In this document: piece by piece, positions 13,614-60,823 of the stretch
Position numbering within the stretch: the stretch's first letter is position 1
Layout of the letters: every line of letters starts with the position of its first letter
Translations under genes and position numbers: made by a program
The notes under the pieces: generated by a model
Database searches by the model: none
What the model saw: only the letters and a program-made list of their open reading frames with translations
Told to the model about the DNA's origin: nothing
Origin: a virus
IMG/VR virus record: IMGVR_UViG_3300046694_000315
Span: 42,047 to 106,046 of that record
DNA length: 64,000 bases
Direction: 5' to 3' (one strand)

Positions 13614-13615
13614 GG

Positions 13616-22131: not shown

Positions 22132-22133
22132 AT

Positions 22134-32545: not shown

Positions 32546-32578
32546 TCAACAGGGGCCCCCGTAGGTATGAAGTCGCAT
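32546..32578 (-). CDS. Leader mini-ORF MRLHTYGGPC upstream of recA
   Basis: Ten codons, ATG at 32576-32578 after AGGAG with a 9-base spacer, stop TGA two bases before the GTG of recA. Its third to fifth codons are CTT CAT ACC, the conserved motif. The frame of the motif is defined by this ORF and not by the longer recA-frame reading, in which it would be Thr-Ser-Tyr. Confidence 0.7.
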   Translation of the reverse strand: MRLHTYGGPC

Positions 32579-32696: not shown

Positions 32697-33080
32697 TCAG
32701 GGAATTTGCCGAGGCCACGGCGGCAGAGGCTTCGGCCCGTTGCCGTCCCACGGAGCCAGCCACTGCTGCTCGATGAGGTGGGAGACCGCGTCCCGACCGT
32801 CCCGCAGGGTGATGGTCGCGAGGTACCGGCCGCCGAACTTGTCCGGGTCGACGTCACGGCCCACCTTGTGCGAGCGGACAACCACCTGACTGCCCACCGG
32901 CAGGAGAGCGGACAGGTTCGCCCGCGCCTCCTTGCCTCCCGGCTCCTTCAACTCCCGGGCGTTGCCGCCGTGCAGCCGTATGTGGAAGTCGTGCTTCCAG
33001 GTATCGACGCCGAGGTCCAGGTTCACCGTCACCGTGTCGCCGTCGTGCACGTCGGTGACGACCGCGTTGTACTCGTACAT
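32697..33080 (-). CDS. Staphylococcal nuclease-like protein
   Basis: The 127-residue protein shows the SNase pattern: VTDVHDGDTVTVNLDLGVDT (D-G-D-T metal site), FHIRLHGGNARELK (R-L-x-G-x-x-A-x-E) and a later SHKVGRDVDPDKFGGRYLAT. It would cleave DNA or RNA in a Ca2+-dependent way. The ATG overlaps the stop of the reductase gene. Confidence 0.82.
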   Translation of the reverse strand: MYEYNAVVTDVHDGDTVTVNLDLGVDTWKHDFHIRLHGGNARELKEPGGKEARANLSALLPVGSQVVVRSHKVGRDVDPDKFGGRYLATITLRDGRDAVSHLIEQQWLAPWDGNGPKPLPPWPRQIP

Positions 33081-35971: not shown

Positions 35972-37951
35972 TTACTTTGCCTCCGACCAGCGGTCCACGA
36001 TCTTCACGTCGGAAGACAGCGGCACCTTGAGCAGTTTCTGGATGTCCTCGCCGAGCATGGCTTCCTTCACCAGAGCGGCGGCTTCCTCGGCGCGGTCCTC
36101 CGGAGCGAGCACCACGAGTTCGTCGTGCACGGAGAGGATCAGCCGGATCTCGTCCGGCAGGATGTTGTTCAGCCGGATCATGGCCAACTTGATCAGGTCG
36201 GCCGCACTGCCCTGGATCAGCGAGTTCACTGCCTGGCGCTCGGCTCCCATTCGCAGGCCGTTGTTCTGCGAGAGGATGAGCGGAAGGCGGCGCTTGCGGC
36301 CGAGCAGCGTGCGGATGTACGGAGGGCGCCGCGACCGGCAGACCCGTACGACTTCCTCCTTGAAGCGGTAGATCTCGGGGAACAACTTCCGGTGCATCTC
36401 CATGAAGCGCTTGGCGTCCTTGAGGGAGATCTTCGCCATGCTGGCGACCTTGTCCGGACCGGCGCCGTAGACGACAGCGAAGTTGATTCCCTTGGCGACC
36501 TGACGGAAGTCGATGCACTCCCGGTCGCCTGCCTTCACCCGCCGGACGAATTCCTGCGGGTCGATTCCCATCAGCGCGGCAGCGGTGGCCGAGTGAGGGT
36601 CGACGCCGTTGTGGAATCCCTTGTACAGATCGCCTCGGCCGATGAAGTGCGCGAGCACCACGAGTTCGATCTGTCCGTAGTCCGCGACGACCAGTTTGTA
36701 TCCGGCCGGTGCCACGAACAGTCCACGGATTCGCTTACCGAGTTCCGTGTCCGGACGGGGGATGTTCTGGAGGTTGGGTTCCCGGCAGGAGAATCGGCCC
36801 GTCACCGTTCCGTACTGGACGAAGTCGGCGTGGATCCGGCCGTCGAATATCCGGCACGGCTTCTTCGGGTCGTCCTCGATACCGAGGTAGGACAGCGGGT
36901 AGTCGAGCAGCTTGCTGACTTCGGCGTACTCCAGCAGCTTCTTGACGACCGCGTTGTTCTCGTGCTTTTCCAGGCTGTCGGCGTCGGTGGAGTAGTCCTT
37001 CCACTCCAGCTCCTGCCCGGCGTCCCGCTTCTTCTTGCCGCCGTCGGTCGGCTTGGTGGGGCGCAGGCCCTGGCCGCCGTCCTTCTTGGGCGCGTACAGC
37101 ACCTCGGCCTTCTGGGCCGGGGCGTTGAGGTTGAACTGCTTGCCCGCTGCGCGGTAGATGTCCGCTTCGATGTCCACCAGGCGCTCGGACATGTCGCGGA
37201 CCAGCTCGCGCATGGCCTGCTCGTCGACCGGTGCTCCGGTGATGCCCATGTCGAGCAGCACGCCGAGGACGTCCTCTTCCAGGCGCCGGACGTTGACCAG
37301 GGACTGGTCGTTGATCCGCTTCTGGAACTTCTTCCACAGCAGGTAGGTGTACTTCGCGTCCATGTACGCGTAGTGGGCGACCTTGGAGAAGGGGTGGGCC
37401 TCGACGCACTTGCCGACGTTCTCGGTGTCGTAGTCGACCTTGTAGTAGCGCTTGACGAGTTCCTTGAGGCCCTTCTGTTTCATATTTTCGTCCAACAACC
37501 ACTGCAAAACGATGGTGTCGGAGTACTTCGGGGGTGCGATCTCGCCCCAGTACTTCGCCGTGGAGATGAGGTCGAAGGTCGCGTTGTGCGCGATCTTGAT
37601 CTTGTCCTCGGCGAAGAACAGCGGCTTGAGGATGGAGAACACCTCGGAGGGGAGCATCTGCTCCGGCGGGGCGTCGTAGACGGCCGGGATGGCGTCGAAC
37701 TTCCCGGTGATCTTGTTCTTCTTCTTCGTGGCCTTGCTCAGCAGGACGTCGCCGTTGGGGTGGCCGAACGGGATGGCGTAGGCCTCGCCGTCGGTGGCCA
37801 GGCTCAGCCAGTTGGCGACGTTCTGGGTCGGGACACCTCGGTTGGCGCCGAAGGTCTCGATGTCGAAGGAGAAGGCCGACGCGCTCATGAAGCGGTCGAC
37901 CACGGTATGAAGTCGGTCGGGGGTGAGGATGACGCTGTTGCGGATGGCCAC
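35972..37951 (-). CDS. polA: Family A DNA polymerase
   Basis: The 659-residue protein has an N-terminal 3'-5' exonuclease (AFSFDIETFG, IAHNATFDLI, AHYAYMDAKYTYLLW) and the polymerase motifs A (KLVVADYGQIELVVLAHFIG), B (RQVAKGINFAVVYGAG) and C (ILSVHDELVV). There is no 5'-3' exonuclease domain. It copies the phage genome. The Leu-His-Thr site is at codons 14-16 (37904), immediately N-terminal of the exonuclease. Confidence 0.93.
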   Translation of the reverse strand: MAIRNSVILTPDRLHTVVDRFMSASAFSFDIETFGANRGVPTQNVANWLSLATDGEAYAIPFGHPNGDVLLSKATKKKNKITGKFDAIPAVYDAPPEQMLPSEVFSILKPLFFAEDKIKIAHNATFDLISTAKYWGEIAPPKYSDTIVLQWLLDENMKQKGLKELVKRYYKVDYDTENVGKCVEAHPFSKVAHYAYMDAKYTYLLWKKFQKRINDQSLVNVRRLEEDVLGVLLDMGITGAPVDEQAMRELVRDMSERLVDIEADIYRAAGKQFNLNAPAQKAEVLYAPKKDGGQGLRPTKPTDGGKKKRDAGQELEWKDYSTDADSLEKHENNAVVKKLLEYAEVSKLLDYPLSYLGIEDDPKKPCRIFDGRIHADFVQYGTVTGRFSCREPNLQNIPRPDTELGKRIRGLFVAPAGYKLVVADYGQIELVVLAHFIGRGDLYKGFHNGVDPHSATAAALMGIDPQEFVRRVKAGDRECIDFRQVAKGINFAVVYGAGPDKVASMAKISLKDAKRFMEMHRKLFPEIYRFKEEVVRVCRSRRPPYIRTLLGRKRRLPLILSQNNGLRMGAERQAVNSLIQGSAADLIKLAMIRLNNILPDEIRLILSVHDELVVLAPEDRAEEAAALVKEAMLGEDIQKLLKVPLSSDVKIVDRWSEAK

Positions 37952-38031: not shown

Positions 38032-38844
38032 TCAGTCGTTCAGGATCTCGCGGGCGATCGTCTTGAGTTCGTTGCGCGTGTTCACCTGGAGGACGTCCTC
38101 GTCGTAGGCCTTGTCGTCGAACTCCTCCAGGTCGTCCTCGGTGAGGGGCTCGATGTCCCAGTCGTCGGCGAGGTCGCGCTCCTTCACGGGGGTGATGTAG
38201 TAGGTGGTCTTGTTGTTCTTGCTCTGCTTGGAGACGGAGAAGTAGAGGTCGTCCCGGTTGATCGGGGCGGTCTTCTTGTCCTTGGAGTAGTTCTTGAGGA
38301 TGTCCGCGACCATCGGGCCGAACTGCCAGATCTTGATCTGCGGGTCGTCGGGGTCGGTGAAGTCCACGACGTTGAAGCAGACCTGCTGGGAGGGCTTGTC
38401 ACCCGCGTCGTCGCACAGCGGGCAGCGGGACTCCAGGCACGTCCAGGACCGCTTGCCCTTGCGCTCGATCCAGTGCTGGAGGAAGACCAGGAACGGCTCC
38501 TCGTCAAGGATCTTCACGACCACGGCCTCGCCGGTCACCTTGAAGTTCTCGGGGAAGGAGGACGTGGCGCTCTTGGTCTTCTCGTACGAGCCCCAGCCCT
38601 TGCCGCCGACCTTCGGGGCGGGCTCGTCGTCCTCGTCGTCGTCCTCCTCCTGGGAGCGGCGCGAGCGGCGGGAGGCGGGGGCCTCCTCGGTATGAAGCGA
38701 GTCGCGGCGCGAGCCCCGGCGGGAGCCGCGACGCGGCTGGTCGTCCTCGTCGTCGTCCGGGAGGTTGCTGTCCTCCGGCTCGTCGGCGGGGGTGTACGCC
38801 TCGGTGGACGCAGCGGTGCGGCGGCGGGTGAGGGTGCGGGGCAT
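38032..38844 (-). CDS. Single-stranded DNA-binding-like protein with zinc motif
   Basis: An Arg/Ser/acidic N-terminal third (SRRGSRRDSLHTEEAPASRR) precedes a core with VVVKILDEEPFLVFLQHWIE and CLESRCPLCDDAGDKPSQQV CFNVVDFTD, then an acidic C-terminus (DLEEFDDKAYDEDVLQ). OB-like core, zinc Cys and acidic tail recall T4 gp32-type phage SSBs. The Leu-His-Thr site (38689) lies in the disordered N-terminal region. Confidence 0.65.
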   Translation of the reverse strand: MPRTLTRRRTAASTEAYTPADEPEDSNLPDDDEDDQPRRGSRRGSRRDSLHTEEAPASRRSRRSQEEDDDEDDEPAPKVGGKGWGSYEKTKSATSSFPENFKVTGEAVVVKILDEEPFLVFLQHWIERKGKRSWTCLESRCPLCDDAGDKPSQQVCFNVVDFTDPDDPQIKIWQFGPMVADILKNYSKDKKTAPINRDDLYFSVSKQSKNNKTTYYITPVKERDLADDWDIEPLTEDDLEEFDDKAYDEDVLQVNTRNELKTIAREILND

Positions 38845-39083
38845 CAGGTGTTCTCCTGCTGGTAGAGATGGATGTACGACTTGTCCTCGGCTGTGTTCAG
38901 CCGGGCCTCTTCGACGTCGGCGGCCAGCGCGGTGGCCAGGTACTCGGAGGCGAAGTTTTCGAGGGTGTCGGCGCTCTGCGGTCCGGGGAGGTCATCGGAG
39001 TCGACCTCGATCTCGGCGCCGAACTCGACCCACTCGAAGTTGCCCATGCTGACGTGGTGCTTGGCGCTGCGGGTGATCTTCAC
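38844..39083 (-). CDS. 79-residue hypothetical protein
   Basis: From a GTG (39081-39083) overlapping the upstream stop: VKITRSAKHHVSMGNFEWVE FGAEIEVDSDD, beta-rich and then a helix. The stop overlaps the ATG of the SSB-like gene. Actinophages often carry such a protein beside replication genes. Function unknown. Confidence 0.7.
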   Translation of the reverse strand: MKITRSAKHHVSMGNFEWVEFGAEIEVDSDDLPGPQSADTLENFASEYLATALAADVEEARLNTAEDKSYIHLYQQENT

Positions 39084-39541
39084 TGCTCGGCCAGCCTCTT
39101 GAAGAGGTCGATGACGCGGGCGGTGAAGTTGGTGCCCTTGATCGGCTTCTGGTGGGAGACCAGGACGCCTTCCTCGTGCGCGATGCGGACGATGCCCTCG
39201 ACCTGTTCGCGGGTGTAGAGGCGGCGACGGCCGCGCACGTCGTCGTCCCGTCCGGGTGACTGGAAGGTGGACTTGGGGATGATCCCCTCGCGCTCCCACT
39301 TGCGGATGGTCACCGGCTGGCGGCCCAGGGCCCGGCCGAGTTGGCCGACGGTGAAGAACTCGGTCTCGACGCCGCCCACGTTGTACCTGCGGGGCTTGGC
39401 GTCCCAGTCGGCCGCCGACGGGGCGGCCTTGGTATGAAGTCCGTTGCGGTTCTGGTGGCGGACGATCGGCTTGGTGGAGCCGGGGTAGAACTGCTCCCCG
39501 ATCTCGGCGAAGTCCTGCTCGATGCTGGCGAGGCTGCTCAT
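39080..39541 (-). CDS. MerR-like helix-turn-helix protein
   Basis: TEFFTVGQLGRALGRQPVTI RKWEREGIIPKSTF (about 62-95) and RRRLYTREQVEGIVRIAHEE form a MerR/excisionase-type winged helix. The N-terminal third contains RNGLHTKAAPS with the conserved motif (39431). Likely a DNA-binding regulator or recombination accessory. No drug-binding domain is present. Confidence 0.75.
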   Translation of the reverse strand: MSSLASIEQDFAEIGEQFYPGSTKPIVRHQNRNGLHTKAAPSAADWDAKPRRYNVGGVETEFFTVGQLGRALGRQPVTIRKWEREGIIPKSTFQSPGRDDDVRGRRRLYTREQVEGIVRIAHEEGVLVSHQKPIKGTNFTARVIDLFKRLAEQ

Positions 39542-40125: not shown

Positions 40126-40503
40126 TTAGTACGTAACCTCGTCGACTCGCGAGGGGACCGACTGGCCCAACCGGGTGGTGCGGCGGTCGGCGTACCGGCG
40201 GGCGTCGGCGTCCGTCTGGTCGCGGCGCACGTCCGTCTCTGCAACGTCCTGGTAGACGGTGACGACGCGCTTCTCGGCCGGGTCCACGATGGCCACGAGG
40301 TCCCCCCGAACGTGCCGAACCTGTCCAGGAACGCGGCCCGAGGGGTAGGTATGAAGCGGCTCGTTGGCCGCGAGAAGAACGTCCGCGCTGGTCCAGCCCT
40401 TGGCTGCGGCCTGCTGCTGCGCGTGGTGGGTCAGCCGGTAGGTCGGCGCGTCGGTGACTGGCGCGGACCAGGTGATGCCGAGGCATTCTGCGATGGTGGC
40501 CAT
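40126..40503 (-). CDS. RelE-like DUF4258 protein
   Basis: YRLTHHAQQQAAAKGWTSAD VLLAANEPLHT followed by RHVRGDLVAIVDPAEKRVVT VYQD fits the DUF4258 pattern (Y-x-L-T-x-H-A, V-x-x-A, two C-terminal strands), a family with a BECR/RelE-like fold. RelE toxins cleave mRNA on the ribosome; DUF4258 function is not established. The start ATG is followed by an unusual extension EVTY at the C-terminus. Its own promoter is at 40549-40577. It contains a Leu-His-Thr motif (40348). Confidence 0.65.
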   Translation of the reverse strand: MATIAECLGITWSAPVTDAPTYRLTHHAQQQAAAKGWTSADVLLAANEPLHTYPSGRVPGQVRHVRGDLVAIVDPAEKRVVTVYQDVAETDVRRDQTDADARRYADRRTTRLGQSVPSRVDEVTY

Positions 40504-42448: not shown

Positions 42449-42735
42449 TGGGAGTACTGCCGATCGAACTGCCCCCGTGTGCGCGGTCGGCGGGCGAAGG
42501 GGACGCCCGGGGTGTAGTGCCCCTCCTGGATGTGGTCGGGGTTGGCGCACATCCGCCGGGTACACGCGCGGTGCTTCTGCCCGGCGCCTCCGGTGATGAA
42601 CGACAGCAGGCTCTGGCCCCGGTAGGTAGGCCGCGTCGCGGTCGACTGGAAGATCAGGCATGCGGAGTCCGGGTCGGGCTCGACGCGGTCCCAGAAGGCC
42701 TGTCCCAGGTGCTCGTAGCCTTCAGGCGCCAGCAT
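42442..42735 (-). CDS. HNH-type endonuclease, small
   Basis: MLAPEGYEHLGQAFWDRVEP then SLLSFITGGAGQKHRACTRR MCANPDHIQEGHYTPG. The C-x4-C-x-N-P-x-H pattern matches the HNH_3-type fold. It overlaps the helicase start by a few bases and its own start overlaps the 42722 gene. It may be a free-standing homing-like nuclease. Confidence 0.65.
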   Translation of the reverse strand: MLAPEGYEHLGQAFWDRVEPDPDSACLIFQSTATRPTYRGQSLLSFITGGAGQKHRACTRRMCANPDHIQEGHYTPGVPFARRPRTRGQFDRQYSQC

Positions 42736-42919
42736 TCGCGGCCTCCTGGTGGGTCATGTGGAAGCCACGGCACCTGGGGCACTCGTAGACGCGCACCGGC
42801 AGGAACTCGCGGGTGCTGTCCTTCTTGCGCTGGATCCGCTGCATGTCGAGCAGCGCGGAGACGCGGTCGGGGAAGCGGCGCTTGCCGCAGGTATGAAGTC
42901 GGCGCTTGTTGTAGGGCAT
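42722..42919 (-). CDS. 65-residue zinc-finger protein
   Basis: MPYNKRRLHTCGKRRFPDRV is followed by YECPRCRGFHMTHQE, giving one early Cys and a CxxC with two His. The Leu-His-Thr codons are numbers 8-10 (42890). Small RNA- or DNA-binding protein by appearance. Confidence 0.65.
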   Translation of the reverse strand: MPYNKRRLHTCGKRRFPDRVSALLDMQRIQRKKDSTREFLPVRVYECPRCRGFHMTHQEAANAGA

Positions 42920-42929
42920 GACGGGCTCC

Positions 42930-43886
42930 TTAGAACCGTGCGAGGACGGATGAGTAGGCGTTGTCGACGGCGTAGGTGATCTCGCTGTCGGTCATGTCTC
43001 CGGGGTCCTTGGCGGACGTGTGGGAGTAGTCGAGGAAGCGCAGGGTCAGGCCTCGTCCGACCCACTCCTTGCGCAGCCGGGCGCAGGCCTCGACTCCGGC
43101 CTTGTCGTTGTCCAGGGCGATGACGACGGTGTCGAAGTGGTCGCGGATCAGGGACATCTGGGCGTCGGAGACTCCGGCGCCGAAGGCGGCCAGCCCGGCC
43201 TTGTATCCCGCCGCGCGCAGCCGGGCCACGTCGAGGGGCGACTCGACCAGGATGGCCAGGTCGTCCTCGTAGGTATGAAGCCCGAAGAGGGTCTTGGACT
43301 TCGTCATGGAGTTGGGCCGGTTGCGGAAGTAGCGGGAGTTCTTCTCCTGCCAGCCCCAGAGCATGCCGGTGTCGGGGCAGCGCACCGGGACGATCCACAT
43401 GTCGCGCTTGGGATCCCAGAGCACTCCGGCGGCCTCGGCGTCCTGGGGGAAGAACATGCGCTCTGCGCAAGCGGCCAGCGGCGGGGTCACGTACAGGGCC
43501 AGCGAGGCCTCATTGATGTGCTTGGTCGTGTCGACCTGGCTCGGCTGCTTCTTCGCCAGGAACTTCTTCACCCGCTCGATGCCGCCGCGCCCGCGCACCC
43601 ACACCGCCGCGTCGCTGTACGGGATGTCGAGCACGTCCTTGACCAGGACGACGAACGGGCCCCGGTAGCCGCAGGAGAAGCAGTTGAAATAGCCAGCGTC
43701 GGAGTTGATAGAGAAGGATGGGTGCTTGTCTTTCTTTCCCGTCCGCGCCTCGTGCATGGGGCACGGCATATGAATCTCGTCGCCGTTCACCTTGTAGTCG
43801 AGACCGATCTCGTCCAAGCAGGCGGTGACGTTTCCCGGAATGGGGGTGCCTACTGCGTCCCAGCCCTTGGCTTTCGCTCGGACCAT
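42930..43886 (-). CDS. DnaG-like primase
   Basis: The 318-residue protein has an N-terminal zinc finger (PCPMHEARTG ... GYFNCFSCGYRG; C42, H45, C69, C72) and a TOPRIM core with AILVESPLDVARLRAAGYKA GLAAFGAG and FDTVVIALDNDKAGVEACAR. It makes RNA primers. It is short for a primase; no DnaB-interacting helical domain is evident. The Leu-His-Thr site (43272) lies just before the TOPRIM strand. The ATG overlaps the upstream stop (TAATG). Confidence 0.88.
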   Translation of the reverse strand: MVRAKAKGWDAVGTPIPGNVTACLDEIGLDYKVNGDEIHMPCPMHEARTGKKDKHPSFSINSDAGYFNCFSCGYRGPFVVLVKDVLDIPYSDAAVWVRGRGGIERVKKFLAKKQPSQVDTTKHINEASLALYVTPPLAACAERMFFPQDAEAAGVLWDPKRDMWIVPVRCPDTGMLWGWQEKNSRYFRNRPNSMTKSKTLFGLHTYEDDLAILVESPLDVARLRAAGYKAGLAAFGAGVSDAQMSLIRDHFDTVVIALDNDKAGVEACARLRKEWVGRGLTLRFLDYSHTSAKDPGDMTDSEITYAVDNAYSSVLARF

Positions 43887-44134
43887 TACTGATACCTCTT
43901 TTCCACATGCTTCAGGTAGTCGTACATTTCCCACGCCTGCGGCCCCCGGTCAGCCCAGGTTCCGTAGGTGAGGACCCTGATATGCCCGAGGCCCCTGATC
44001 CGGTGCATTTCGCTGGCGTATATCAGATTCTGGTCACGGGGATTACGGTTGTTCTCCCGGCACCAGAACAGGAACTCCCGGTAGTTCCCGGCGAGGACCA
44101 CCAGGCGGGGCTCAGAAGGCGCCGACGTATCCAT
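43886..44134 (-). CDS. 82-residue hypothetical protein
   Basis: MDTSAPSEPRLVVLAGNYRE FLFWCRENNRNPRDQNLIYA is a phage-typical small Rossmann-like segment (V-V-L-A-G-N-x-x-E-F) also seen in proteins of unknown role. It overlaps the DnaB-like stop by 23 bases and joins the primase start. Confidence 0.65.
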   Translation of the reverse strand: MDTSAPSEPRLVVLAGNYREFLFWCRENNRNPRDQNLIYASEMHRIRGLGHIRVLTYGTWADRGPQAWEMYDYLKHVEKRYQ

Positions 44135-45377
44135 CGGTGTTCTCCTCGTCCATGGCGAAGGGGTCCTCGTTGAGTTCCTCGAACTTGCCGGTCTCCCAGT
44201 CCCACTGGCAGTAGGTCTCCAGGGGCGGGCAGTTACGGGCCAGGACGACCTTGATCTTGTTGATGTTCGCGTCCTCCGTGGACTCGACACCGAGGATCAC
44301 GTCGGAGTCCTGGGCGAAGGAGGACGAATATCCGATGGAGTCAGACGTGATGCCCTTCTTCTTGTTCATCTTCCATTCCAGGACCTGCGTGGAAATGACG
44401 ATCGGGAGTTGCAGGTTCTTCGCCATGCGCTTGAATCCTCGGGTGAGGTTGGTAAGCGCCTGGCTGGATCCCTGAGCCTCGCCGAGTTCGTCCTGCATCA
44501 TGTAGATGCCGTCCACGAATACGATCGTCGGCTTGATGTGGTCGATCTTCGACTGCACACCGGTAAGCGTCGTCGCATTCATGGAGTCCGAGGAAAGGAA
44601 GAACGAAGGCATAGCCTCCAGTTCCCGCAAGGCCCTTTCGAGTTTGTCCCACTCGGCCTTCTTGAGCGTTCCATTCCTCAGCCGGGCGTGGGAAATCCCC
44701 GCGCGAATGGCGTCGAAGCGTTCCTCCTGCTCCTCGTTGCTCATCTCGAAGCCGATGAACAGCGGGCGCTCGCCGTGCAGGTGGGCGGCCATGGCGGCCA
44801 GCAGGAGCAGCGTCGACTTACCGGCCTTCGGCGGGCCGACGAAGGTGACCAACTGCTCCTTCTGGAGGCCCTGGGTGGCCCTGTCGATCGTCGTAAAGCC
44901 GGTGGGGATCCCCCGGAGCCCGTCGGGCAGGTCCTTGAGCGTGAGGTACCGCGCGAGGCGCTGCTGGCCGGTCTCCGTCAGGTCAGTGTCGCGGGCGTTG
45001 GGTACGGCCGAGGCGATGTCCGCCAGGGTCTTGTGCAGGGCCGCCATCGCGGCCAGCGCGTCGCCCTCTTCGTGTGCGTCGACCGAGTCGGCCAGGCCCT
45101 GCTCCAGCAGGGCCAAAGTATGAAGTTCCCGCAGCCGGTCGGTCAGCACGTTCATGCTGTCCTCGACCTTGACGAACTTGTAGGTGGGGAAGTCCGTCTT
45201 GATCGTGGCCAGGGACGGCACCTCACCGTAGGTGCCCTTGTGCCGCAGGATCGCCTTGAAGACGGCCCGGTTGTCCGGGTCGCCGAAGAAGTCGGGGGTG
45301 ATGCCCGCGTCCGCGACGTCAGTCAGGTCCTTGTCCTGGATGACGCGGGAGACGAGCAGCCGCTCGAAGTCCGCCAC
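44112..45377 (-). CDS. dnaB: DnaB-like replicative helicase
   Basis: The 421-residue protein has a DnaB N-terminal helical domain (residues 1-125) and a RecA-type core: Walker A FVGPPKAGKSTLLLLA (about 180-192), FIGFEMSNEEQEERFDAIRA, Walker B TIVFVDGIYMM, ISTQVLEWKMNKKKG. It unwinds the fork with primase and the DnaC-like loader from the same operon. The Leu-His-Thr site (45117) is in the N-terminal domain. GTG start adjoins the upstream TAG. Confidence 0.9.
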   Translation of the reverse strand: MADFERLLVSRVIQDKDLTDVADAGITPDFFGDPDNRAVFKAILRHKGTYGEVPSLATIKTDFPTYKFVKVEDSMNVLTDRLRELHTLALLEQGLADSVDAHEEGDALAAMAALHKTLADIASAVPNARDTDLTETGQQRLARYLTLKDLPDGLRGIPTGFTTIDRATQGLQKEQLVTFVGPPKAGKSTLLLLAAMAAHLHGERPLFIGFEMSNEEQEERFDAIRAGISHARLRNGTLKKAEWDKLERALRELEAMPSFFLSSDSMNATTLTGVQSKIDHIKPTIVFVDGIYMMQDELGEAQGSSQALTNLTRGFKRMAKNLQLPIVISTQVLEWKMNKKKGITSDSIGYSSSFAQDSDVILGVESTEDANINKIKVVLARNCPPLETYCQWDWETGKFEELNEDPFAMDEENTDGYVGAF

Positions 45378-45820
45378 TACATGGCTCCGATCAGGGTGGT
45401 GGGTACGGCCGGGAGCATGCGCCCCTTGCTGCCGTAGATCAGGTGGTGTTCGTTGTCGAAGATCGCTGCGACGTCCGGCATGTGTGCCAGGCGGCGGGCC
45501 AGCTTCTTCGGCTCGTCGGCCCAGATGCGGCCGATGGGCAGGCCCTCGATGTCCAGGCGCCATTCCAGGGCCTCGGCGAACTCGTCGCCCAGGTAGGTGA
45601 TGACGTCGACCGAGTACCGGTGGCGCCAGACCGTGTCCCAGATGACGTGGGCCAGCGGCTCGTTGATCTCGTAGGCCTTCACCGCGCGCTTCCACTGGTG
45701 AGCGCGGCGGGCCACGGCTTCGCCAGCTCGGGTACGTGCGGTGGGCAGGTTGCCCAGGAGGCCTTCGAAGACGACGACCAGGCGCGGGGAGACCTCGTTG
45801 CTTATGTCCCCGCCCTGCAT
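45377..45820 (-). CDS. HAD-like hypothetical protein, 147 aa
   Basis: MQGGDISNEVSPRLVVVFEG LLGNLPTARTRAGEAVARRA then VDVITYLGDEFAEALEWRLD and VAAIFDNEHHLIYGSKGRML. The strand-loop-strand pattern with DVITYLGD and AAIFDNE is HAD-like, but the first motif is V-F-E-G rather than D-x-D, as in 17218. It sits between DnaC and DnaB genes. Confidence 0.6.
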   Translation of the reverse strand: MQGGDISNEVSPRLVVVFEGLLGNLPTARTRAGEAVARRAHQWKRAVKAYEINEPLAHVIWDTVWRHRYSVDVITYLGDEFAEALEWRLDIEGLPIGRIWADEPKKLARRLAHMPDVAAIFDNEHHLIYGSKGRMLPAVPTTLIGAM

Positions 45821-46065
45821 CAGGTTCGCTCCGCGTCCGCGCGGAGCCAGATATGAAGCCGGTTGCCCCGGACCTCGCGCCGGTCGCTGTAGCGGAAGGG
45901 CCGGAAGCCGAGACTCTTGGCGCGGGCCCAGGCCAGGCGCTTCAGCATGCTGACGGTGTGCTGCTGCTCGGGGAACCTGCCGGTGATCGTCGACAGGATC
46001 TCGTCTTTGTAGACAACTGACAAAATCTCGTCCTCGAAGGGGAGGACCATCTGCTCATGCTGCAC
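45820..46065 (-). CDS. Hypothetical protein, 81 aa
   Basis: MQHEQMVLPFEDEILSVVYK is followed by a basic helix (MLKRLAWARAKSLGFRPFRY) and ends with RLHIWLRADAERT, which carries the Ile variant of the motif (45850) ten codons from the stop. It overlaps the DnaC stop by 11 bases. Function unknown. Confidence 0.65.
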   Translation of the reverse strand: MQHEQMVLPFEDEILSVVYKDEILSTITGRFPEQQHTVSMLKRLAWARAKSLGFRPFRYSDRREVRGNRLHIWLRADAERT

Positions 46066-46714
46066 GGCGGTCTCCTCCGACGATCGTGAGGTGGGTGAAG
46101 GCCTCCTGGATGAAGGAGCCCATCGTGGGGTTGTAGACGGCGCCCCACTCCCGGGGCGGGAGGTTCGAGGTGACCAGGGTGGGCAGGGCCTCGCGGTGAC
46201 GCTGGCGCAGGAGGGTGTCGAGCAGGCCTTCGGCGTAGCCGGTCTTGGTGCGGTGCTCCTTGCCGACGTCGTCCAGGAGGAGGACGGGGGCCTTCTCGGC
46301 CGCCACGATCTTGTCCTGGATCTCCCACCAGCGGGCGACGGCTTCGGGCTCGTGCCGGTCCTGGAGGCCCATCTTCTCGATGGAGTCCTTCACGAAGTCG
46401 GCGTAGGCCAGCCAGTGGACCGGCAGGCGCTTCTCGAAGTAGACCTCCAGCAGGGTGGCCGTGGCCAGGGAGGTCTTGCCGGTGCCGGGAGGGCCGACGA
46501 ACAGCAGGCCCTTGCCGATCTGGGACCAGTCCTCGGGGTACTGGTCGAGCGGGCGCTTGTCGGTGACGTAGTGGTCGCGCAGGTTGTCGAGCCAGGTCTG
46601 GCAGGCGGCGCGCGGCGCGGCGTCCGCCACGGTATGAAGCCGCAGGTGGCGGTAGTGCGCCGGGATGCCGTACTCCTTCAGGCGCAGGGCGTGGACCCGG
46701 GGGTCTGTCGCCAT
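46055..46714 (-). CDS. dnaC: DnaC-like helicase loader (AAA+)
   Basis: The 219-residue AAA+ protein has Walker A FVGPPGTGKTSLATATLLE (about 72-90), Walker B VLLLDDVGKEHRT, LVTSNLPPREW (sensor 1) and a terminal R-finger-like GDRR. DnaC-type loaders deliver DnaB. The Leu-His-Thr site (46631) is at codons 26-28. The ATG follows AGGAGG, after an upstream terminator. Confidence 0.88.
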   Translation of the reverse strand: MATDPRVHALRLKEYGIPAHYRHLRLHTVADAAPRAACQTWLDNLRDHYVTDKRPLDQYPEDWSQIGKGLLFVGPPGTGKTSLATATLLEVYFEKRLPVHWLAYADFVKDSIEKMGLQDRHEPEAVARWWEIQDKIVAAEKAPVLLLDDVGKEHRTKTGYAEGLLDTLLRQRHREALPTLVTSNLPPREWGAVYNPTMGSFIQEAFTHLTIVGGDRRAA

Positions 46715-46796
46715 GGTCGGTACCTCCTGTGGTGGTGGGTCAACGCTCAGCAGGCTACCACAGTTATTGCTTCTCGGATACGCCTTTGGAATGCGT

Positions 46797-46828
46797 AAGG
46801 GGCGGACCGCCGCAGCAGCCCGCCCCTT
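46797..46828. terminator. Hairpin terminator after the initiator gene
   Basis: A 9-bp stem AAGGGGCGG/CCGCCCCTT, between the stop of the 46837 gene and dnaC. Confidence 0.7.
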
Positions 46829-46836
46829 CGGGTCGG

Positions 46837-47820
46837 TCAGGACCAGTAGTCCTCGTTGAACCGGTTGTCCTCCATCGCACTGACGGCCTTGCCCAGTCGC
46901 TGGGTCAGCAGCCCACGGGCGGCCAGGAAGTCCTTCCAGGCGACCACGTTGTCCGAGCGCTGCCAGGACGACGACCAGTAGGTGATGATCATCTGGCGGA
47001 TCTCGTCCCGCTCCGTGCCCTGTGCCATCCACCGGCCGAAGTTGCCGGTGAGGGCGGAGAGGTTGGTCGTGCCGGGTACCGGGTGGCCCACCTCCTGGGC
47101 CCTCTTGTCGAAGAACAGGGCCAGTTCCTCTGACGGCCGCGTGGAGCGCTTCCTGGGAGGTCGCTGGACCGGAGGGGCCGGGATGTCCTGCGAGGCCGGG
47201 AGATCGCCGTAGAGACTGAACGACGGGGCGCTCTCCTCCAGGGACTGGGAGACCACGAACGCCGGGTCGAGTTCCCTCTCCGCCTGAGCCTGCTCTTCGG
47301 CCACCTGCTTCCGGGACTTCTTCCGGCCGCCACGCTTGGGTGCCGCGACGGCCCCCCAGCCCTTGGCTCCTGGCCTGGTCACAGGTTCGTCTTGCAGGGC
47401 GTCGCCCTGGAGATACGAAGTATCTCTATTACTTCTAGTAGGGATATTGGGGTTGGGTGAAAACTTCGACACAGGGGGTGCAGATTCTGCACTGCTCAGG
47501 GGTGCAGAATCTGCACTCGGGGAGGTCACCGACCACTCCGCCACCGGCTTGATACGCCGGACCACGGACTTGTAGCGCAGGGCTTCCACGGGCACCTCGT
47601 CGTCCGGCACGTGCTCGACGACCCCCTGCTCCTCCAGGGTCGCCAGCGAGGCGTACGCCTGCCGCTTGGAGACGCGCGCCTTGCCCGCGATGGTGTCGGC
47701 GGACTCCCAGCACATGCGGTGGGTGTCGTTGGCGGCGTCGGCCAGCGCGAGCAGCACCAGGCGGGTGGCCAGGCGCGTGTCGGAGTACGAGAACACCTCG
47801 GACATGATCAGGATGCTCAC
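46837..47820 (-). CDS. Replication initiator-like protein (winged helix)
   Basis: The N-terminal about 100 residues (VLLALADAANDTHRMCWESA DTIAGKARVSKRQAYASLAT LEEQGVVE) are a helix-turn-helix of the replication-initiator or DnaD/RepA type. A Ser/Pro/Ala linker, a basic patch (KRGGRKKSRKQVAEEQAQAE) and a C-terminal helical domain (SALTGNFGRWMAQGTERDEI) follow. Gene order before dnaC and dnaB supports an initiator. The linker DNA holds paired repeats. The GTG start (47818-47820) overlaps the stop of the leader ORF. Confidence 0.75.
   Translation of the reverse strand: MSILIMSEVFSYSDTRLATRLVLLALADAANDTHRMCWESADTIAGKARVSKRQAYASLATLEEQGVVEHVPDDEVPVEALRYKSVVRRIKPVAEWSVTSPSADSAPLSSAESAPPVSKFSPNPNIPTRSNRDTSYLQGDALQDEPVTRPGAKGWGAVAAPKRGGRKKSRKQVAEEQAQAERELDPAFVVSQSLEESAPSFSLYGDLPASQDIPAPPVQRPPRKRSTRPSEELALFFDKRAQEVGHPVPGTTNLSALTGNFGRWMAQGTERDEIRQMIITYWSSSWQRSDNVVAWKDFLAARGLLTQRLGKAVSAMEDNRFNEDYWS
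47411..47425. repeat. Palindrome AGATAC-GAA-GTATCT
   Basis: A perfect 6-bp-arm palindrome inside the initiator gene, within a locally AT-rich stretch (about 47410-47470), beside the paired 15-bp repeats. Confidence 0.55.
47478..47516. repeat. Paired inverted 15-bp repeats in the initiator gene (origin candidate)
   Basis: GTGCAGATTCTGCAC (47478-47492) and its reverse complement GTGCAGAATCTGCAC (47502-47516), each almost palindromic itself, encode Ser-Ala-Asp/Glu-Ser-Ala repeats in the linker. With the AT-rich stretch next to them this resembles the lambda O layout, where iterons lie inside the initiator gene. Confidence 0.55.
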
Positions 47821-47864
47821 TCGGCGACTCCGAGGAAGCGATAAGTATGAAGCGATATCCCCAT
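47817..47864 (-). CDS. Leader mini-ORF MGISLHTYRFLGVAE upstream of the initiator
   Basis: Fifteen codons with ATG at 47862-47864 and the stop TGA overlapping the GTG of the initiator gene (GTGA). Codons 5-7 are CTT CAT ACT, the dispersed motif (plus strand AGTATGAAG at 47844). A weak purine-rich GAGAGAG lies 8 bases upstream. It is the translated leader of the initiator gene. Confidence 0.65.
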   Translation of the reverse strand: MGISLHTYRFLGVAE

Positions 47865-47980: not shown

Positions 47981-49219
47981 TCACTCCGAGTCGAAGTCGA
48001 GGCCCTTCTCCTCGATCTCCGCCCGCGTCAACTGGACGACCTTCTGTCCGGCCGGGATCCGGCCACGGCCGCGACGGCTGTAGTTGCCCTCGTCGTCGAC
48101 CAGGTAGGCGAACGTCTTGGTCTCGTCACGCGGACGGCCACGGCGACGGCGCGGGGTCGACTCCTCTTCCTCCTGCTCCTCGGCGGCCGGAGCCTCCGAG
48201 GCCTTCTCCTGCTGGGCGGCGTCGCCCAGGGTATGAAGCGCCTTTCGGAGCAGTTCGGTCAGCGGGCGCTCGCGCACGTCGGCCTGGTTGATGACCGCGT
48301 TGCGCTCGTCCTCCAGTCGGAAGGCGTTGTAGGCACCCTCCAAAGCGGCGCGCACGAGGAGCAGGTCGATCTCCGTGTCCGGGACCGCCTTGGCGGCCTC
48401 CTGCTGCGCCTTGTGCTGCGCTCGGGCGACCTCCTGCTCCAGGCTCTCCTGGTTCTGGATGTCCTCCTCGACCGGGTCTGCCTCCGGCTCGGGCTCCGGC
48501 TGGGCCTTGCGGCGACCGCGACGCTTCGGCGCCTCCGGCTCGGGCTCCGGCTGCGGCTCCGGCTGCGCTTCCGGCTCGTCCTCCGTCAGCGGCTCCTCTT
48601 CCACCTCGACCGGCTCCGGCTCGGCACGGCGACCGCGACGGCGGCCACGCTTCGGCGCCTCCGGCTCGGGCTCCGGCTCGGGCTCGGGAGCGGCCTCGGC
48701 CTCGGGCTCGGGCTCGGGCTCGGGCTCGCTGGCGAAGGAGATGTCGTCGAGTCCGGCCGTGAGGTCCTTCGCCTTGATCCCGGCGGCCTCGGCCGCGTCC
48801 AGAAGGAGTTCGGCTTCCTCGCTGCCCTCGTCGCCCCACAGGAGGATGACGTGGGCGTCGCCGACGCTGTCGGCCTTCTTCAGCAGGTCGACGATCCCGG
48901 CGGTGACGTTGGCCGTGCGCACGACCTCCTCGGCGTCCTTGAGGATGGAGTCCACGGCCCGGCTCTTCTCGCCGTCGGTGACCGCGATGAACGGGATGTC
49001 CGCGTACTCCGACCACTCCAGCACGGCCTCCAGGCCGTCGGACAGGTGCTTCTTGGTGATCGGCAGGATGAGGGTGACTTCCCGCTCGGTGGGCTCGGGG
49101 AAGCCGTCGGCGTCGTCCTCGCCCAGGCCGACGAAGTCGTTCAGCAGAGCCTTGACGTTGTCGATGTCGGTGTCGGCGGAGCCAGCGAAGGCGAGGGCGA
49201 TGGGGTCGGTGCTGCTCAA
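47981..49219 (-). CDS. Acidic/AT-hook DNA-binding protein
   Basis: The first about 150 residues form an alpha/beta domain ([20 protein letters not shown] ... VILLWGDEG), then long EPEPEPEA repeats alternate with AT-hook-like patches: [26 protein letters not shown] and [11 protein letters not shown]. The layout suggests a nucleoid-type or chromatin-modulating protein. The start is taken as TTG (49217-49219) after GGAG. Promoter at 49269-49297. The Leu-His-Thr site (48230) is in the C-terminal third. Confidence 0.7.
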
Positions 49220-49268
49220 GTCTGCTCCAGGTGTGGTGTGTTTGCCGCCTTGATCGGCGACGAGGAAG

Positions 49269-49297
49269 ACGTTACCGGTTACGGCTTCTAAAAGCAA
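49269..49297 (-). promoter_or_regulatory. Sigma70-type promoter for 49219
   Basis: TTGCTT (49292-49297), 17 bp, TAACGT (49269-49274) on the minus strand; the -10 equals that of the 6643 promoter. Confidence 0.55.
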
Positions 49298-49628: not shown

Positions 49629-50156
49629 TCAGACCGCCGACGCGGTGAGGTCGATGGACTTCGACAAGGCGGCAGCCGGGCCCGGGACCTCGGCCACGTC
49701 CGCGACTGCCTGTGGCAGGGTGCGCCGCAGGACGGACTCCAGGGCCGTGACGATCTGCTGGACGGCCTCTGCGCTCAAGGCGTTGCTGCTGGCCGGGACG
49801 ACGGCGCTCTCCTCGACGTACTCCTCGACGGTCCCGGACGGGATATGAAGCCGGATCTCCGCCTCCGCGATCAGCGTGTTCTGGAGCCGGGCGAACCAGG
49901 AGTACTTCTTCAGCAGCGAGTGGTAGAAGGTCGTGCCGGACACCCACGCCAGGAACGCGGCGACGACGGCGGGCGCCCAGTAGAAGTGCTGGGGGTGCGC
50001 CTGGTAGACGGCCCAGAATCCGGTGGCAACCGCTAGGACGGCATGCGCCGCTCCCTTGACTGTGCTGTTGGTGGACGGCTTGGAGAACAGAGCGACCACG
50101 GCCGGTAGGCCCAGGCCGACGACGAGGGAGGACACGTCGGCGTAGTTGGTGAACAT
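49629..50156 (-). CDS. Holin-like membrane protein, 175 aa
   Basis: MFTNYADVSSLVVGLGLPAV VALF, KGAAHAVLAVATGFWAVYQA and FYWAPAVVAAFLAWVSGTTF are TM segments, followed by a long soluble tail. This is the size and topology of large actinophage holins. It lies at the end of the tail operon, the usual lysis position, though the endolysin is at 21.3 kb. It carries a Leu-His-Ile variant (49842). Confidence 0.6.
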   Translation of the reverse strand: MFTNYADVSSLVVGLGLPAVVALFSKPSTNSTVKGAAHAVLAVATGFWAVYQAHPQHFYWAPAVVAAFLAWVSGTTFYHSLLKKYSWFARLQNTLIAEAEIRLHIPSGTVEEYVEESAVVPASSNALSAEAVQQIVTALESVLRRTLPQAVADVAEVPGPAAALSKSIDLTASAV

Positions 50157-56125: not shown

Positions 56126-58591
56126 TCAACTTGCCATAACTATGTAGTCGACGCCGGTGGCCGTTGTATTCGTTCTGGTGAGCCAGATCGTAACTGAGTC
56201 CGTTGTCACGCCGGTACATCCGACGCCCGTCACCGACGTTCCGGGAACTGTGGTGGAAGGCGTCGCGATTGCTCTCGGACTACTGCCCGTAAGGCCGAGC
56301 CCCGTTACCGTCACCGACGTCGGAGTATTCGCGGCGCTGGGGGTGATCGTCACGCGGCCGGTAACGATATTCGCAGCGGCCAGGACACCGGATACCTGTA
56401 GCGCGTCAGCGCCAATTTCCGCCCCCGTGTAGGCGCCGTTGTAAGACAGGAGGATGTATGGGGTGTCTGCGGTGTCGTTTACGTTCGGCGGAGCGATAAA
56501 CATCGACCTGGAATCGGCTGAGCCGTCGACCGAGATGAGTCCGGGAGCGTCCGTGGCGGTGGCGCCGTAGAACAGCAACTCGGCGAAGTTCGCAGGGTTG
56601 TTCGAGTTCATCTCGACGCGGGCACCCGACGCGGCGCTTCGGACGGTTGCACCAGTGATGGTGGACGTACCGGTGATCGTGACACCGTTGATCGTCTTGC
56701 CATTGATGGCGTTCGCGTCGAGTTTGTCGGCGGTGATAGACCCGGCCACGACCAGCGCGTTGTCCACGGCCTTGCGCATCTTGGCGTTGGTGACGAGCCA
56801 GTACCCGGCCGCCGTCGTCGGTGTCGTCTGTGACGGGCCTACACCGAACGTCGCCAGGTACTTCCCGGCCGGGATCGTGATCTGGCCGCTGATCTTGATC
56901 CAGGTTGTTGCCGCCGACGGAGCGAGGCTTGCGGTAGCGGGCCAGGTGGTGTTGGCGCCTGCTGCGTCCGACGTCGCCAGGAAGAACCGCAGGCTGCTGT
57001 TGCAGGTGCTGGAGGCGGCCACCCACGCCTCGACGTAGTAGGTCTCCCCCGGCGACACCGGCATGGCGTTCAGCGTTCCGGCGCTGTGCTTCCACGTCAG
57101 GTCGGTGTTGAGGCTGGTCTGCGAGATGAGTTTCGCGACCCACGAGGCTGGGGCCCCTGCCGTCACGCTGGGGTCGGTGGAGGCCGTCCGGACGACGTTG
57201 GTGCCCCAGTTCCAGGCGCTGCTGTTCTGCGTGAACTGGGGGTCCAGGAGGATGTTCGACGTATCTCCGATGACCAGCTTGTCCGTGGTGATGGACCGGG
57301 CCCCGATGACGGATGCGCTGATGGTGCCGGTGGTGATCGAGCCGCCGTTGATCGTCGTGGTGGTCGGGATGGTGCCGTTGTTCAACTGGTTGGCCGGGAT
57401 GCTGACGCCCGAGCCGATGGAGCCGGTGACCGTGGTCGCCGAGGACGCGGAACCTGACGTCGTCGCGGAACCTGCCGTGGCTGCGGAGGAGACCTGCCCG
57501 GAGACGTTCGTGCCGGAGATGACGAGGTTGGTCGCGTCGATCTGTGACGCTGTCAGCCTGCCGACGGTGATCTTGGAGGCATCGATGGACGCGATGACGC
57601 CGGACTCAGCGGTGATCGTCCCGGCCGCCATCTGGTTGGCGGTGACCGAGTTGGCTGCGATGTCCCCGGTGCCTGCCTGGTGCGCCGTGCCGGAGTTCGC
57701 GGCCGACGGCGCGGAAGCGATGGCGACCTTGGAGTAGGCCACCAGCCGGTAGCTGTACGCGGAGGCGTAGTTCTGGACGGAGTCGTAGAGGAAGTCCGCG
57801 CCGGGCAGCGTGCCGACGACGACCGGGTTGGAGAAGGCCGGATCGGTGTCCCGCTGCACCTGCACGTGGGAGAAGATCGCAGGCATCGCGAAGCCGGAGA
57901 CGTCCTTGCCGTCCCAGGTGACGCGCAGGCCGCCGAGCACGCCGGTAACCCCCGGGGCGGAGGGCACCGGAGGTGGGGTCGAGGACGAGGCGCTGGTGAT
58001 GTGCGCGGACGCCCACAGGGAGACGTTGCTGGAGATGTCGACTGCCTGCACGCGGACCATGACGTCCACGCCGGTATGAAGCCCGTCGAGGACGACGAGG
58101 GTGTCCTGGGTGACCAGCCCGCCGGACCAGTTCGTGCCGTCGTAGGAGTACTGGAGGACGTAGTGGGCGAGGTCGGTGAGGTTGGTGCCGTCCTGGTTCT
58201 CCGTCGGCGCGGTCCAGCTCGCCTGCACGCGGGCCAGGGTGGCACCCTCGTTGGTGACGTACTGCACCGTGGTGAGGGTCAGCGCGGTCGGTTCCTTGGG
58301 CGGGAGAACGTCCAGTGTGTCCCCGGTCGGCAGACCGTCGACCGCGTCCTGGACGTCCTTGATGCCCAGCGGGGAGTAGACCGGCTTCGTGATGTCCCCG
58401 CCCGAGAACTGCACCCACAGGGTCTGGCCGACCGGAGGCACCGTGTTCGTCGGGGATGCCGGAACGGCCCACGCACTTTCCGCGCTTCCCAGGACCTGCG
58501 GAATCAGCAGGGTAACCCGCGCCTCATTCAGCGGGTCCTGGTTATTGGAGACACTTCCCCGGTATATGCCCAGCATCGGCTCAGCCGACAT
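56126..58591 (-). CDS. Baseplate spike/OB protein with FN3 and fibre domain, 821 aa
   Basis: The N-terminal GIYRGSVSNNQDPLNEARVT LLIPQVLGS resembles gp5/VgrG OB-fold entries (R-x-x-V-x-x-P-x-V-x-G). Two fibronectin III domains follow (VQASWTAPTENQDGT ... YSYDGTNW; GVTGVLGGLRVTWDG), then repeated A-x-x-I-x-A-x-x-I segments (collagen/beta-helix-like fibre) and a C-terminal beta sandwich. It probably forms the tail tip. The Leu-His-Thr site (58073) is in the first FN3. Confidence 0.78.
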   Translation of the reverse strand: MSAEPMLGIYRGSVSNNQDPLNEARVTLLIPQVLGSAESAWAVPASPTNTVPPVGQTLWVQFSGGDITKPVYSPLGIKDVQDAVDGLPTGDTLDVLPPKEPTALTLTTVQYVTNEGATLARVQASWTAPTENQDGTNLTDLAHYVLQYSYDGTNWSGGLVTQDTLVVLDGLHTGVDVMVRVQAVDISSNVSLWASAHITSASSSTPPPVPSAPGVTGVLGGLRVTWDGKDVSGFAMPAIFSHVQVQRDTDPAFSNPVVVGTLPGADFLYDSVQNYASAYSYRLVAYSKVAIASAPSAANSGTAHQAGTGDIAANSVTANQMAAGTITAESGVIASIDASKITVGRLTASQIDATNLVISGTNVSGQVSSAATAGSATTSGSASSATTVTGSIGSGVSIPANQLNNGTIPTTTTINGGSITTGTISASVIGARSITTDKLVIGDTSNILLDPQFTQNSSAWNWGTNVVRTASTDPSVTAGAPASWVAKLISQTSLNTDLTWKHSAGTLNAMPVSPGETYYVEAWVAASSTCNSSLRFFLATSDAAGANTTWPATASLAPSAATTWIKISGQITIPAGKYLATFGVGPSQTTPTTAAGYWLVTNAKMRKAVDNALVVAGSITADKLDANAINGKTINGVTITGTSTITGATVRSAASGARVEMNSNNPANFAELLFYGATATDAPGLISVDGSADSRSMFIAPPNVNDTADTPYILLSYNGAYTGAEIGADALQVSGVLAAANIVTGRVTITPSAANTPTSVTVTGLGLTGSSPRAIATPSTTVPGTSVTGVGCTGVTTDSVTIWLTRTNTTATGVDYIVMAS

Positions 58592-59994: not shown

Positions 59995-60794
59995 CGTCCG
60001 GCCTTTCCGCTCTTGGCCGCCTGCTCGGAGGCAGACAGCGGGTCGCCCCAGTTGCCTGCGCGAGGGCCGATGAAGCCGGGCTTGGCCTCGTACTTGTTGC
60101 CTCCCTGCGGCGTCGGCAGGAGCGTCACGGTGACCGTGACCTGCGCGCGAGAGGGGATCATCTCCTGGGTCCAGTGGGTGTACTGGAGGTCCAACTGCTG
60201 GATGACGCCGTAGTAGGACAGCGACGTGCCGATCACGACGTACACCGGCACGTAGGTCATGGGACCGGCCGGGCCGTTGGTGTAGGTGCCCTTCGAGAAC
60301 GCCTTCTTGTAGGCGTCCGCGTCGGAGCTGCTGTCGTCGGTGACCGGCATCGGGGTGGCGATACCGGTGATCTTGTAGAGGGCGAGGATGTCGTAGGCCA
60401 CGCCGAAGGAAGGCACCATCGTGGCCGCCTCCCCGTACAACTTCGAGGAGTCCCACAGTTCGTAGGTGCGGTCGAAGAGCAGGCTGAACGACAGCGTCTG
60501 CTGAAGTGGGAGCAGCGTCTGCCCGGCGGTGACGTCGTCCTTGTTCACCGCGTTCGGGTCGGACAGGACGTTGGTGTCGATGCCGTGGGAGATGCTGATC
60601 GTGCTCGGGTTGTAGAGGAAGTTGCAGCGCTGGCGGGCGCCGTTCACTCCCTTCTCCTGGATGATGAATCCCCGGGTCAACTTCTTTCCGCCCGACCCGG
60701 TAACCCAGTCGACTCCGCCCAGGTTCTGGGTGAACGGAATGCTGGTGATTCGCGGGTCGAAGGGACCGTTGTCGGTTATCTTGCTGGCGGCCAT
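59991..60794 (-). CDS. Contractile-injection tube/tail-tip protein, 267 aa
   Basis: RQRCNFLYNPSTISISHGID and QQTLSFSLLFDRTYELWDSS, then PVYVVIGTSLSYYGVIQQLD LQYTHWTQEMIPSRAQVTVT VTLLPTP resemble CIS-tube proteins that precede LysM proteins in contractile tails (F-N-P-x-S-x-S, F-L-x-D, V-x-x-V-x-V-x-L). The ATG overlaps the stop of the leader ORF 60794-60823 (TAATG). Confidence 0.7.
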   Translation of the reverse strand: MAASKITDNGPFDPRITSIPFTQNLGGVDWVTGSGGKKLTRGFIIQEKGVNGARQRCNFLYNPSTISISHGIDTNVLSDPNAVNKDDVTAGQTLLPLQQTLSFSLLFDRTYELWDSSKLYGEAATMVPSFGVAYDILALYKITGIATPMPVTDDSSSDADAYKKAFSKGTYTNGPAGPMTYVPVYVVIGTSLSYYGVIQQLDLQYTHWTQEMIPSRAQVTVTVTLLPTPQGGNKYEAKPGFIGPRAGNWGDPLSASEQAAKSGKAGR

Positions 60795-60823
60795 TACGCG
60801 ACCGCCCGAGTATGAAGTCGCAT
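60794..60823 (-). CDS. Leader mini-ORF MRLHTRAVA between tape measure and tube gene
   Basis: Nine codons: ATG at 60821-60823, stop TAA overlapping the ATG of the tube gene. It begins two bases after the stop of the tape measure gene and exactly fills the intergenic gap. Codons 3-5 are CTT CAT ACT. Like the recA leader it begins ATG CGA CTT CAT AC. Confidence 0.65.
   Translation of the reverse strand: MRLHTRAVA

Follow-up and report, generated by a model that had tools for sequence, protein, structure and literature searches.

The proteins of the HicA family are mRNA interferases with a dsRBD fold, and the palindromic elements of Rickettsia are in-frame insertions in genes. In E. coli, HicA had been thought to be independent of the ribosome but was found to prefer cutting sites just ahead of a codon's first base (PMC8546651); such cutting by codon position would fit a target locked in codon phase. 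In recoding sites a stem lies at the distance of the ribosome's mRNA entry, and a stem starting 11 nt downstream is comparable (PMC5009743). Here we describe a short motif that, together with an RNA hairpin, is carried at about 40 places by a single virus, in one reading frame and inside translated RNA.

One of these places is the junction between two tail genes in the window, i.e. the whole 64,000-nucleotide stretch analysed, which belongs to a record of 106 kb (Table 1). The upstream gene terminates AAC TAA; two bases (CA) follow, and the mini-ORF then runs on the minus strand from 60823 to 60794 as ATG CGA CTT CAT ACT CGG GCG GTC GCG TAA, its stop overlapping the ATG of the tube-like gene in TAATG, exactly as the initial annotation had described this nine-codon frame. 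The "tape measure" gene carries lysozyme domains (NlpC/P60 and SLT) and its neighbours match baseplate and contractile-injection families, so that the phage is probably contractile-tailed and related to Borockvirus. In related contigs the mini-ORF reads MRLHTWAVA, MNRLHTWAAE, MRLNTWVAV, MRLNIWAAA, MRLNTWLAV or MTLLHTWTAE, and all four third bases are seen in its CGN arginine codon, while in relatives devoid of it the stop and start overlap directly, again as TAATG. It is a block of about 30 bases, wholly there or wholly missing among relatives, and in this it is an exception to the pattern of substitution described below. The mini-ORF is best considered a carrier, which would get the element translated in a gene gap while keeping the TAATG stop/start coupling of the tail genes.

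The initial annotation had also remarked that the mini-ORF repeats the opening of the recA leader. This 14-base match is real: the 106-kb record has ATGCGACTTCATAC at exactly two places, the junction and window positions 32578-32565 ahead of recA, where it opens the leader mini-ORF. By itself such a pair of 14-mers is unremarkable in 64 kb; the related contigs, in which the junction mini-ORF recurs, show that it is not due to chance. The initial annotation would have been refuted had no other genome of the group carried the unit in gene gaps, and other genomes of the group do have it, both between the two tail genes and ahead of recA. In G008 the leader forms part of recA proper, as a fusion (MPLNTCAGGPDKEALAL). 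In gene gaps, the copy is carried in phase by a mini-ORF with its own start, whose stop usually overlaps or touches the next start; a third mini-ORF of this kind is present in the window, and further ones (VTLNTCPREGDPR and VVRLNT, each followed by a stop) are found in relatives.

The unit had been delimited as ATG-CGA followed by the motif, and this boundary has to be corrected, because most copies lie inside genes and are preceded by other codons, ATG-CGA being incidental. The actual unit is CTT-[C/A]AT-A[C/T] followed by a GC-rich hairpin, typically from base 12; below, genomes are called C-type or A-type after the fourth base. In the window, CTTCATAC is found 25 times on the minus strand and never on the plus strand, and in the 106-kb record 35 sense copies stand against 1 antisense copy, with about 0.5 expected. 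An unbiased 8-mer scan ranked CTTCATAC or CTTAATAC, with their overlapping neighbours, first in eight of eight genomes of the group (in G008, for example, 37 copies versus 0.1 expected); the same scan gave no enrichment of the motif in the related Borockvirus-like phages BRock, GiJojo and Alone3, and the element is missing from named relatives in public phage collections. When codon pairs were counted, CTT-CAT was observed 42 times versus 0.59 expected, and CTT-AAT 32 times versus 0.49 in an A-type genome. Codon bias was discarded as an explanation, the next-best codon pair being enriched 8.7-fold versus 71-fold.

Altogether, the eight genomes hold 304 copies, corresponding to 82 site clusters, with genes called by a simple codon-usage script on contigs that are mostly metagenomic fragments. 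The occurrence of CTTCATAACG at window position 4870 and one copy in G005 were considered chance matches, and one CTTCATACC (G000 19445, LHTAPTDEIEPP), which has no hairpin and is unchanged in A-type contigs, was not counted as an element. Positions 1-14000 of the window belong to an 18-kb stretch free of elements (genome 38-56 kb), and G008 has a similar gap of about 15 kb.

Table 1. Features of the window connected with the repeated element (window coordinates).
Feature	Position	Strand	Remarks
Upstream gene, 1015 aa	60826-63873	-	NlpC/P60 + SLT domains, tape-measure PHROG matches
Mini-ORF MRLHTRAVA-stop	60794-60823	-	gap between lysozyme-domain tape-measure-like and tube-like genes; element in codon phase 0
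Element core CTTCATACT	60809-60817	-	codons Leu-His-Thr
Junction hairpin GGCGGTC-GCGTAAT-GGCCGCC	60786-60806	-	spans mini-ORF end and start codon of next gene
Downstream gene, 267 aa	59991-60794	-	CIS_tube (PF19266)
Element in baseplate gene 56126-58591	58073-58081	-	hairpin 58050-58071
Core in gene 49629-50156	49842-49850	-	LHI; without clear hairpin
Element in gene 47981-49297	48230-48238	-	hairpin 48212-48229
Third mini-ORF MGISLHTYRFLGVAE-stop	47817-47864	-	core 47844-47852; TGA overlaps GTG of gene 46837-47820; counterparts in G006, G008
Element in AAA/helicase-loader-like gene 46055-47032	46631-46639	-	hairpin 46611-46631
Element close to end of gene 45820-46065	45850-45858	-	hairpin 45828-45847
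Element in DnaB-like helicase gene 44112-45695	45117-45125	-	hairpin 45095-45114
Core in primase-like gene 42930-43934	43272-43280	-	
Element in small gene 42722-42919	42890-42898	-	hairpin 42875-42888
Core in gene 40126-40503	40348-40356	-	
Element in gene 39080-39541	39431-39439	-	hairpin 39410-39428
Element in gene 38032-38844	38689-38697	-	hairpin 38671-38686
Core in DNA polymerase A gene 35972-37951	37904-37912	-	VILTPDRLHTVV; LNT in A-type relatives
Element in ribonucleotide reductase gene 33080-35044	34451-34459	-	hairpin 34431-34449
Second element, ribonucleotide reductase gene	33608-33616	-	hairpin 33584-33599; missing by substitution in G006, G008
recA leader mini-ORF MRLHTYGGPC-stop	32546-32578	-	core 32564-32572; TGA overlaps a recA TTG start; AGGAG upstream
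Element, recA 3' end	31377-31385	-	hairpin 31357-31374 across stop/start TGATG
Core close to end of gene 30888-31232	30933-30941	-	
Element in RNA-ligase gene 28013-28696	28154-28162	-	hairpin 28136-28151
Element close to end of gene 26187-26789	26217-26225	-	hairpin 26194-26216
Element close to end of gene 22836-24095	22869-22877	-	hairpin 22853-22866
Element in gene 21265-22452	21604-21612	-	hairpin 21586-21601
Core in gene 20567-21184	20987-20995	-	
Element in gene 19649-20038	19982-19990	-	hairpin 19954-19976
Core in gene 17719-18582	18397-18405	-	LHI
Core in gene 16242-17090	16572-16580	-	
Core in gene 14677-16215	15928-15936	-	LHM; LNM in A-type G008
Core	14408-14416	-	hairpin 14386-14407

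Nearly all copies lie inside genes, where the motif is read as CTT-[C/A]AT-A[C/T]N, that is Leu-His/Asn-Thr or, less often, with Ile or Met in third place, and all of the 304 copies except the two chance matches have the same phase in the translated frame. The lone opposite-strand copy of this genome (G000) is in phase within an opposite-strand gene of 48 codons, and that of G006 is, by its sequence, likewise in phase in an opposite-strand gene. Since copies are in phase both in genes and in gap mini-ORFs, and the opposite-strand copy is in phase in a gene of its own strand, orientation and phase follow translation and not DNA direction. Most sites lie inside genes, with some excess in the last 20 codons (41 of 235 sites versus 22.5 expected). 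An opposite-strand, Streptomyces-type pair formed by a DUF5753 helix-turn-helix regulator and a DUF397 protein was also noticed within the phage (L179:4328-5427, plus strand).

Downstream of the motif the RNA is predicted to fold more strongly (mean MFE -12.4 kcal/mol, against -8.2 for control codons taken from the same genes). The best stem begins 11 nt after the first C in 89 of the 304 sites, versus 9.3 expected, a P value of 1e-49 that should not be taken literally because orthologous copies are not independent. Perfect 6-bp stems at offsets 9-12 number 64, versus 0-1 at two control offsets. Among stem mismatches G-U outnumbers A-C (31 versus 6; in the control, 6 versus 12), and the 7-bp stem at the junction is paired in 97.1% of cells in 10 relatives, with changes from G-C to C-G and from C-G to U-A. 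The preference for G-U and the covariation of the junction helix point to the sense-strand RNA as the molecule that would fold. The hairpin sequences of different sites are unrelated to one another. A hairpin is typical, not universal: a strong stem lies close to where it is expected in 18 of the 29 window sites, compared with 17.8% of control positions, and about 11 of the 29 are without it.

The fourth base of the motif is a single letter, C or A, at every site of a given genome. Counts over 34 contigs of the group gave 76 A and 37 C sites, with no contig mixed. Both types have in common 32 orthologous site clusters, each copy with the letter of its type, so that the letter was changed in place at many sites; examples are VILTPDRLHTVVDRF versus VILTPDRLNTLVERF in the DNA polymerase and NIDSLHMVSEF versus NIDSLNMVSEF. 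In a core tree of 66 families the three A-type genomes form one clade, which falls between two C groups, so that C types are not grouped. Orthologues without a site show plain substitutions, with unchanged length and conserved downstream residues (LHTKHARF versus LHPKHARF, for instance), so that the element is selected and not inserted. Regarding the proposal of a mobile or selected module, selection is therefore supported, well past the two copies first noticed, and mobility is not. A mobile in-frame insertion (palindromic element, byps) was rejected on the same grounds, and translational bypass was rejected because residues 3' of the site show the same conservation whether or not an orthologue has it.

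A letter switched genome-wide suggests a trans-acting reader. A phage guide RNA was excluded, the sole perfect complement of CTTCATAC in the genome being one opposite-strand site, and a special tRNA was excluded as well, since the class II tRNA with a His anticodon is found in just three of five C-type genomes. The body of this tRNA, which was called as His(GTG), is of class II and resembles that of a leucine tRNA, long variable arm included; the tRNA is confined to three C-type genomes (L179:9073-9158, minus strand; L192:2237-2322; L212:9573-9658). Rfam gave tRNAs and a c-di-AMP riboswitch and nothing else. Riboswitches are uncommon in phages; this one (RF00379, 68 bits; L179:10000-10133, minus strand, genome about 29900-30033, outside the window) precedes a gene for a secreted NlpC/P60-type protein, between phage tRNA genes, and G006 and G008 have a similar leader.

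Of the 98 gene families that could be tested across eight genomes, just two are clearly split by letter type. The largest gap of all, 21 points, belongs to a 64-aa protein (L179:6814-7008), and a gap of 12.6 points to an 81-aa HicA-like protein (L179:1545-1790) encoded about 21 kb to the left of the window. The HicA-like allele matches the letter at every typable locus; the short locus L236 is ambiguous, and the locus of G015 (L238) is motif-free although the gene is present. In the distant contig G018, a HicA-like gene is accompanied by CTTCATAC in 8 sense and 0 antisense copies. The HicA-like protein is the leading candidate reader, on a correlation only, which, given that the three A-type genomes form one clade, rests on effectively one letter change and could be wrong.

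The HicA-like protein matches PF07927 with an E of 5e-5 and 23.7 bits, under the cut-off of 27; all 7 members match the toxin phrog_353, and PADLOC gives a HicA-like match with E 0.0016. Its model (pLDDT 71) has the order alpha-beta-beta-beta-alpha (H20-31, E35-38, E43-47, E53-58, H64-76), and among the best VIA matches the HicA chains 4p78, 5yrz, 6hpb and 6g26 align with Z 4.2-4.7 and rmsd 2.9-3.3 over 56-60 residues, weak values tied with unrelated folds. G40, G41, N42, H43 and W46 are invariant in 13 homologues, and the conserved histidine after the glycine turn, H43, is what we take to be the putative catalytic residue. Searches of genomes and named phages gave no matches for this protein. 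None of eight genes near it, both flanking genes included, matched HicB, and we consequently speak of a solitary HicA-like protein and not of a HicAB member. The 64-aa protein has a confident small beta-beta-alpha-beta fold (pLDDT 84), with no RNA-binding match in Pfam, no clear fold match in the PDB search and no counterpart in named phages. It is directly adjoined by a 79-aa protein present only in C-type genomes (L179:6585-6824, minus strand).

The spacing of the stem, close to the distance of mRNA entry, and the codon phase together argue that the element acts on the translating ribosome. When the P site of the ribosome is occupied by CUU and the A site by [C/A]AU, the hairpin would meet the mRNA entry, a geometry that we infer; the translating ribosome, slowed, might then be presented with the motif or be the place where it is cut, and a phage-encoded protein with type-specific recognition would read the motif and so control or cut phage mRNAs. 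We give slightly less than an even chance to this reading as a whole, an mRNA element that is translated and recognised, on the ribosome, by a type-specific RNA-binding protein of the phage, with the HicA-like protein as the leading candidate; the type-specific protein reader, its HicA identity, its action on the ribosome and its effect on mRNA fate are all parts that we infer. It is also possible that the reader is another phage protein, for example the type-specific 64-aa protein, alone or with the HicA-like one, and that it binds, influencing mRNA stability or localisation, and does not cut. We judge this rather unlikely: the family has the largest type gap of the 98, the protein folds confidently and G015 keeps a HicA-like gene without the motif, but the 64-aa protein shows neither an RNA-binding Pfam match nor a clear fold match and is absent from the named phages searched.

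The ribosome could in principle respond to the signal without any dedicated factor, by a programmed pause or by +1 recoding where CUU-MAU-A precedes a stem. The 7-nt core CUU-NNN-N and the geometry are similar to those of the +1 shift sites CUU_AGG_C and CUU_AGU_U, and phase and hairpin agree with this. However, the +1 frame shows neither a stop nor an open-frame signature, and the frames after the site resemble controls (median distance to the +1 stop of 47 codons versus 37 in the control); conserved residues run on in frame downstream, and a one-letter switch at all sites would be hard to explain lacking a specific reader. We consequently hold a ribosome-only signal to be improbable. Frameshifting as such, +1 or -1, was rejected, its frame signature being absent and the -1 stop in A-type sites being merely the TAA within CTTAATA. 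An RNA antitermination or processing site independent of translation, a nut-like box with its hairpin, would share the box-plus-hairpin layout on the RNA strand, but it would not require the fixed codon phase, which extends to gap mini-ORFs. The phase of A-type copies could be explained by the TAA stop or TTA codon of other phases, but the 37 C-only clusters are also in phase 0, bar chance matches, so that we regard this possibility as quite improbable. Least probable is a polar DNA signal (Chi-, KOPS- or packaging-like) confined to the coding strand because nearly all genes point one way. The strong strand bias over the whole genome would suit it, but the orientation of the motif follows genes, opposite-strand copies being in phase in opposite-strand genes, the codon phase is fixed and the hairpin favours G-U over A-C on the sense strand.

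Returning to a translated element with a phage reader, the in-frame tag with its hairpin points to an undescribed system by which the phage marks its own messages; a search of the open literature, with most subscription journals outside it, gave no description of an RNA element that is spread over a genome, locked in codon phase and accompanied by a hairpin, and that has two dialects, each genome-wide. In its most specific form, which is tentative and which we consider more doubtful than probable, there would be a self-recognition code in the translated genes of this phage family, whose phase-locked 7-nt motif and hairpin would be recognised on the ribosome by an RNase of HicA type or an RNA-binding protein, encoded by the phage, and whose mutually exclusive dialects CUUCAUA and CUUAAUA would have changed together with the reader at dozens of sites. 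If the reader were a HicA homologue, dozens of natural substrates defined in position, frame and structure would bear directly on whether HicA acts at the ribosome and, if so, in what way. About 30 conserved sites changed in step with a candidate partner protein would also be a clean case of co-evolution between an element and its reader.

Several known systems share some of these features. Rickettsia palindromic elements also place hairpin-containing sequences, read in frame, in many genes, whereas the sites described here arise by substitution and their hairpin sequences are unrelated. The frameshift sites of Ty1 (CUU_AGG_C) and EST3 (CUU_AGU_U) have a 7-nt core with in-frame CUU first and a stem at about the mRNA-entry distance (PMC5009743); here, a frame-shifted product is unsupported, dozens of sites occur per genome and two letters are fixed genome-wide. 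The SAS/ESAS of Cluster K mycobacteriophages are short oriented repeats with many copies per actinophage genome, with inverted repeats in about half and sequence variation between subclusters (PMC3203893). The SAS, however, is a 13-bp repeat near translation starts (PMC3203893), while the motif described here is translated, phase-locked and followed by a hairpin, and membership among the SAS was rejected, most sites being inside genes and not at starts. With RegB endoribonuclease and its GGAG sites, T4 too encodes a means of controlling phage mRNAs that relies on a short RNA motif (PMC3014915). The sites of RegB are found within the ribosome-binding sites of early mRNAs and have no codon phase, whereas the present sites are inside translated frames, in all gene classes, with a hairpin. 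With the HicA mRNA interferases (PF07927) the candidate reader shares, in its model, the alpha-beta-beta-beta-alpha order, and it has an invariant GGNH...W, and E. coli HicA has a bias for codon position (PMC8546651). The candidate differs in its Pfam score, under the cut-off, and in the lack of a recognised HicB beside it; the specificity known for HicA proteins is short and ill-defined, whereas here a 7-nt core with a hairpin recurs in the phage's own genes.
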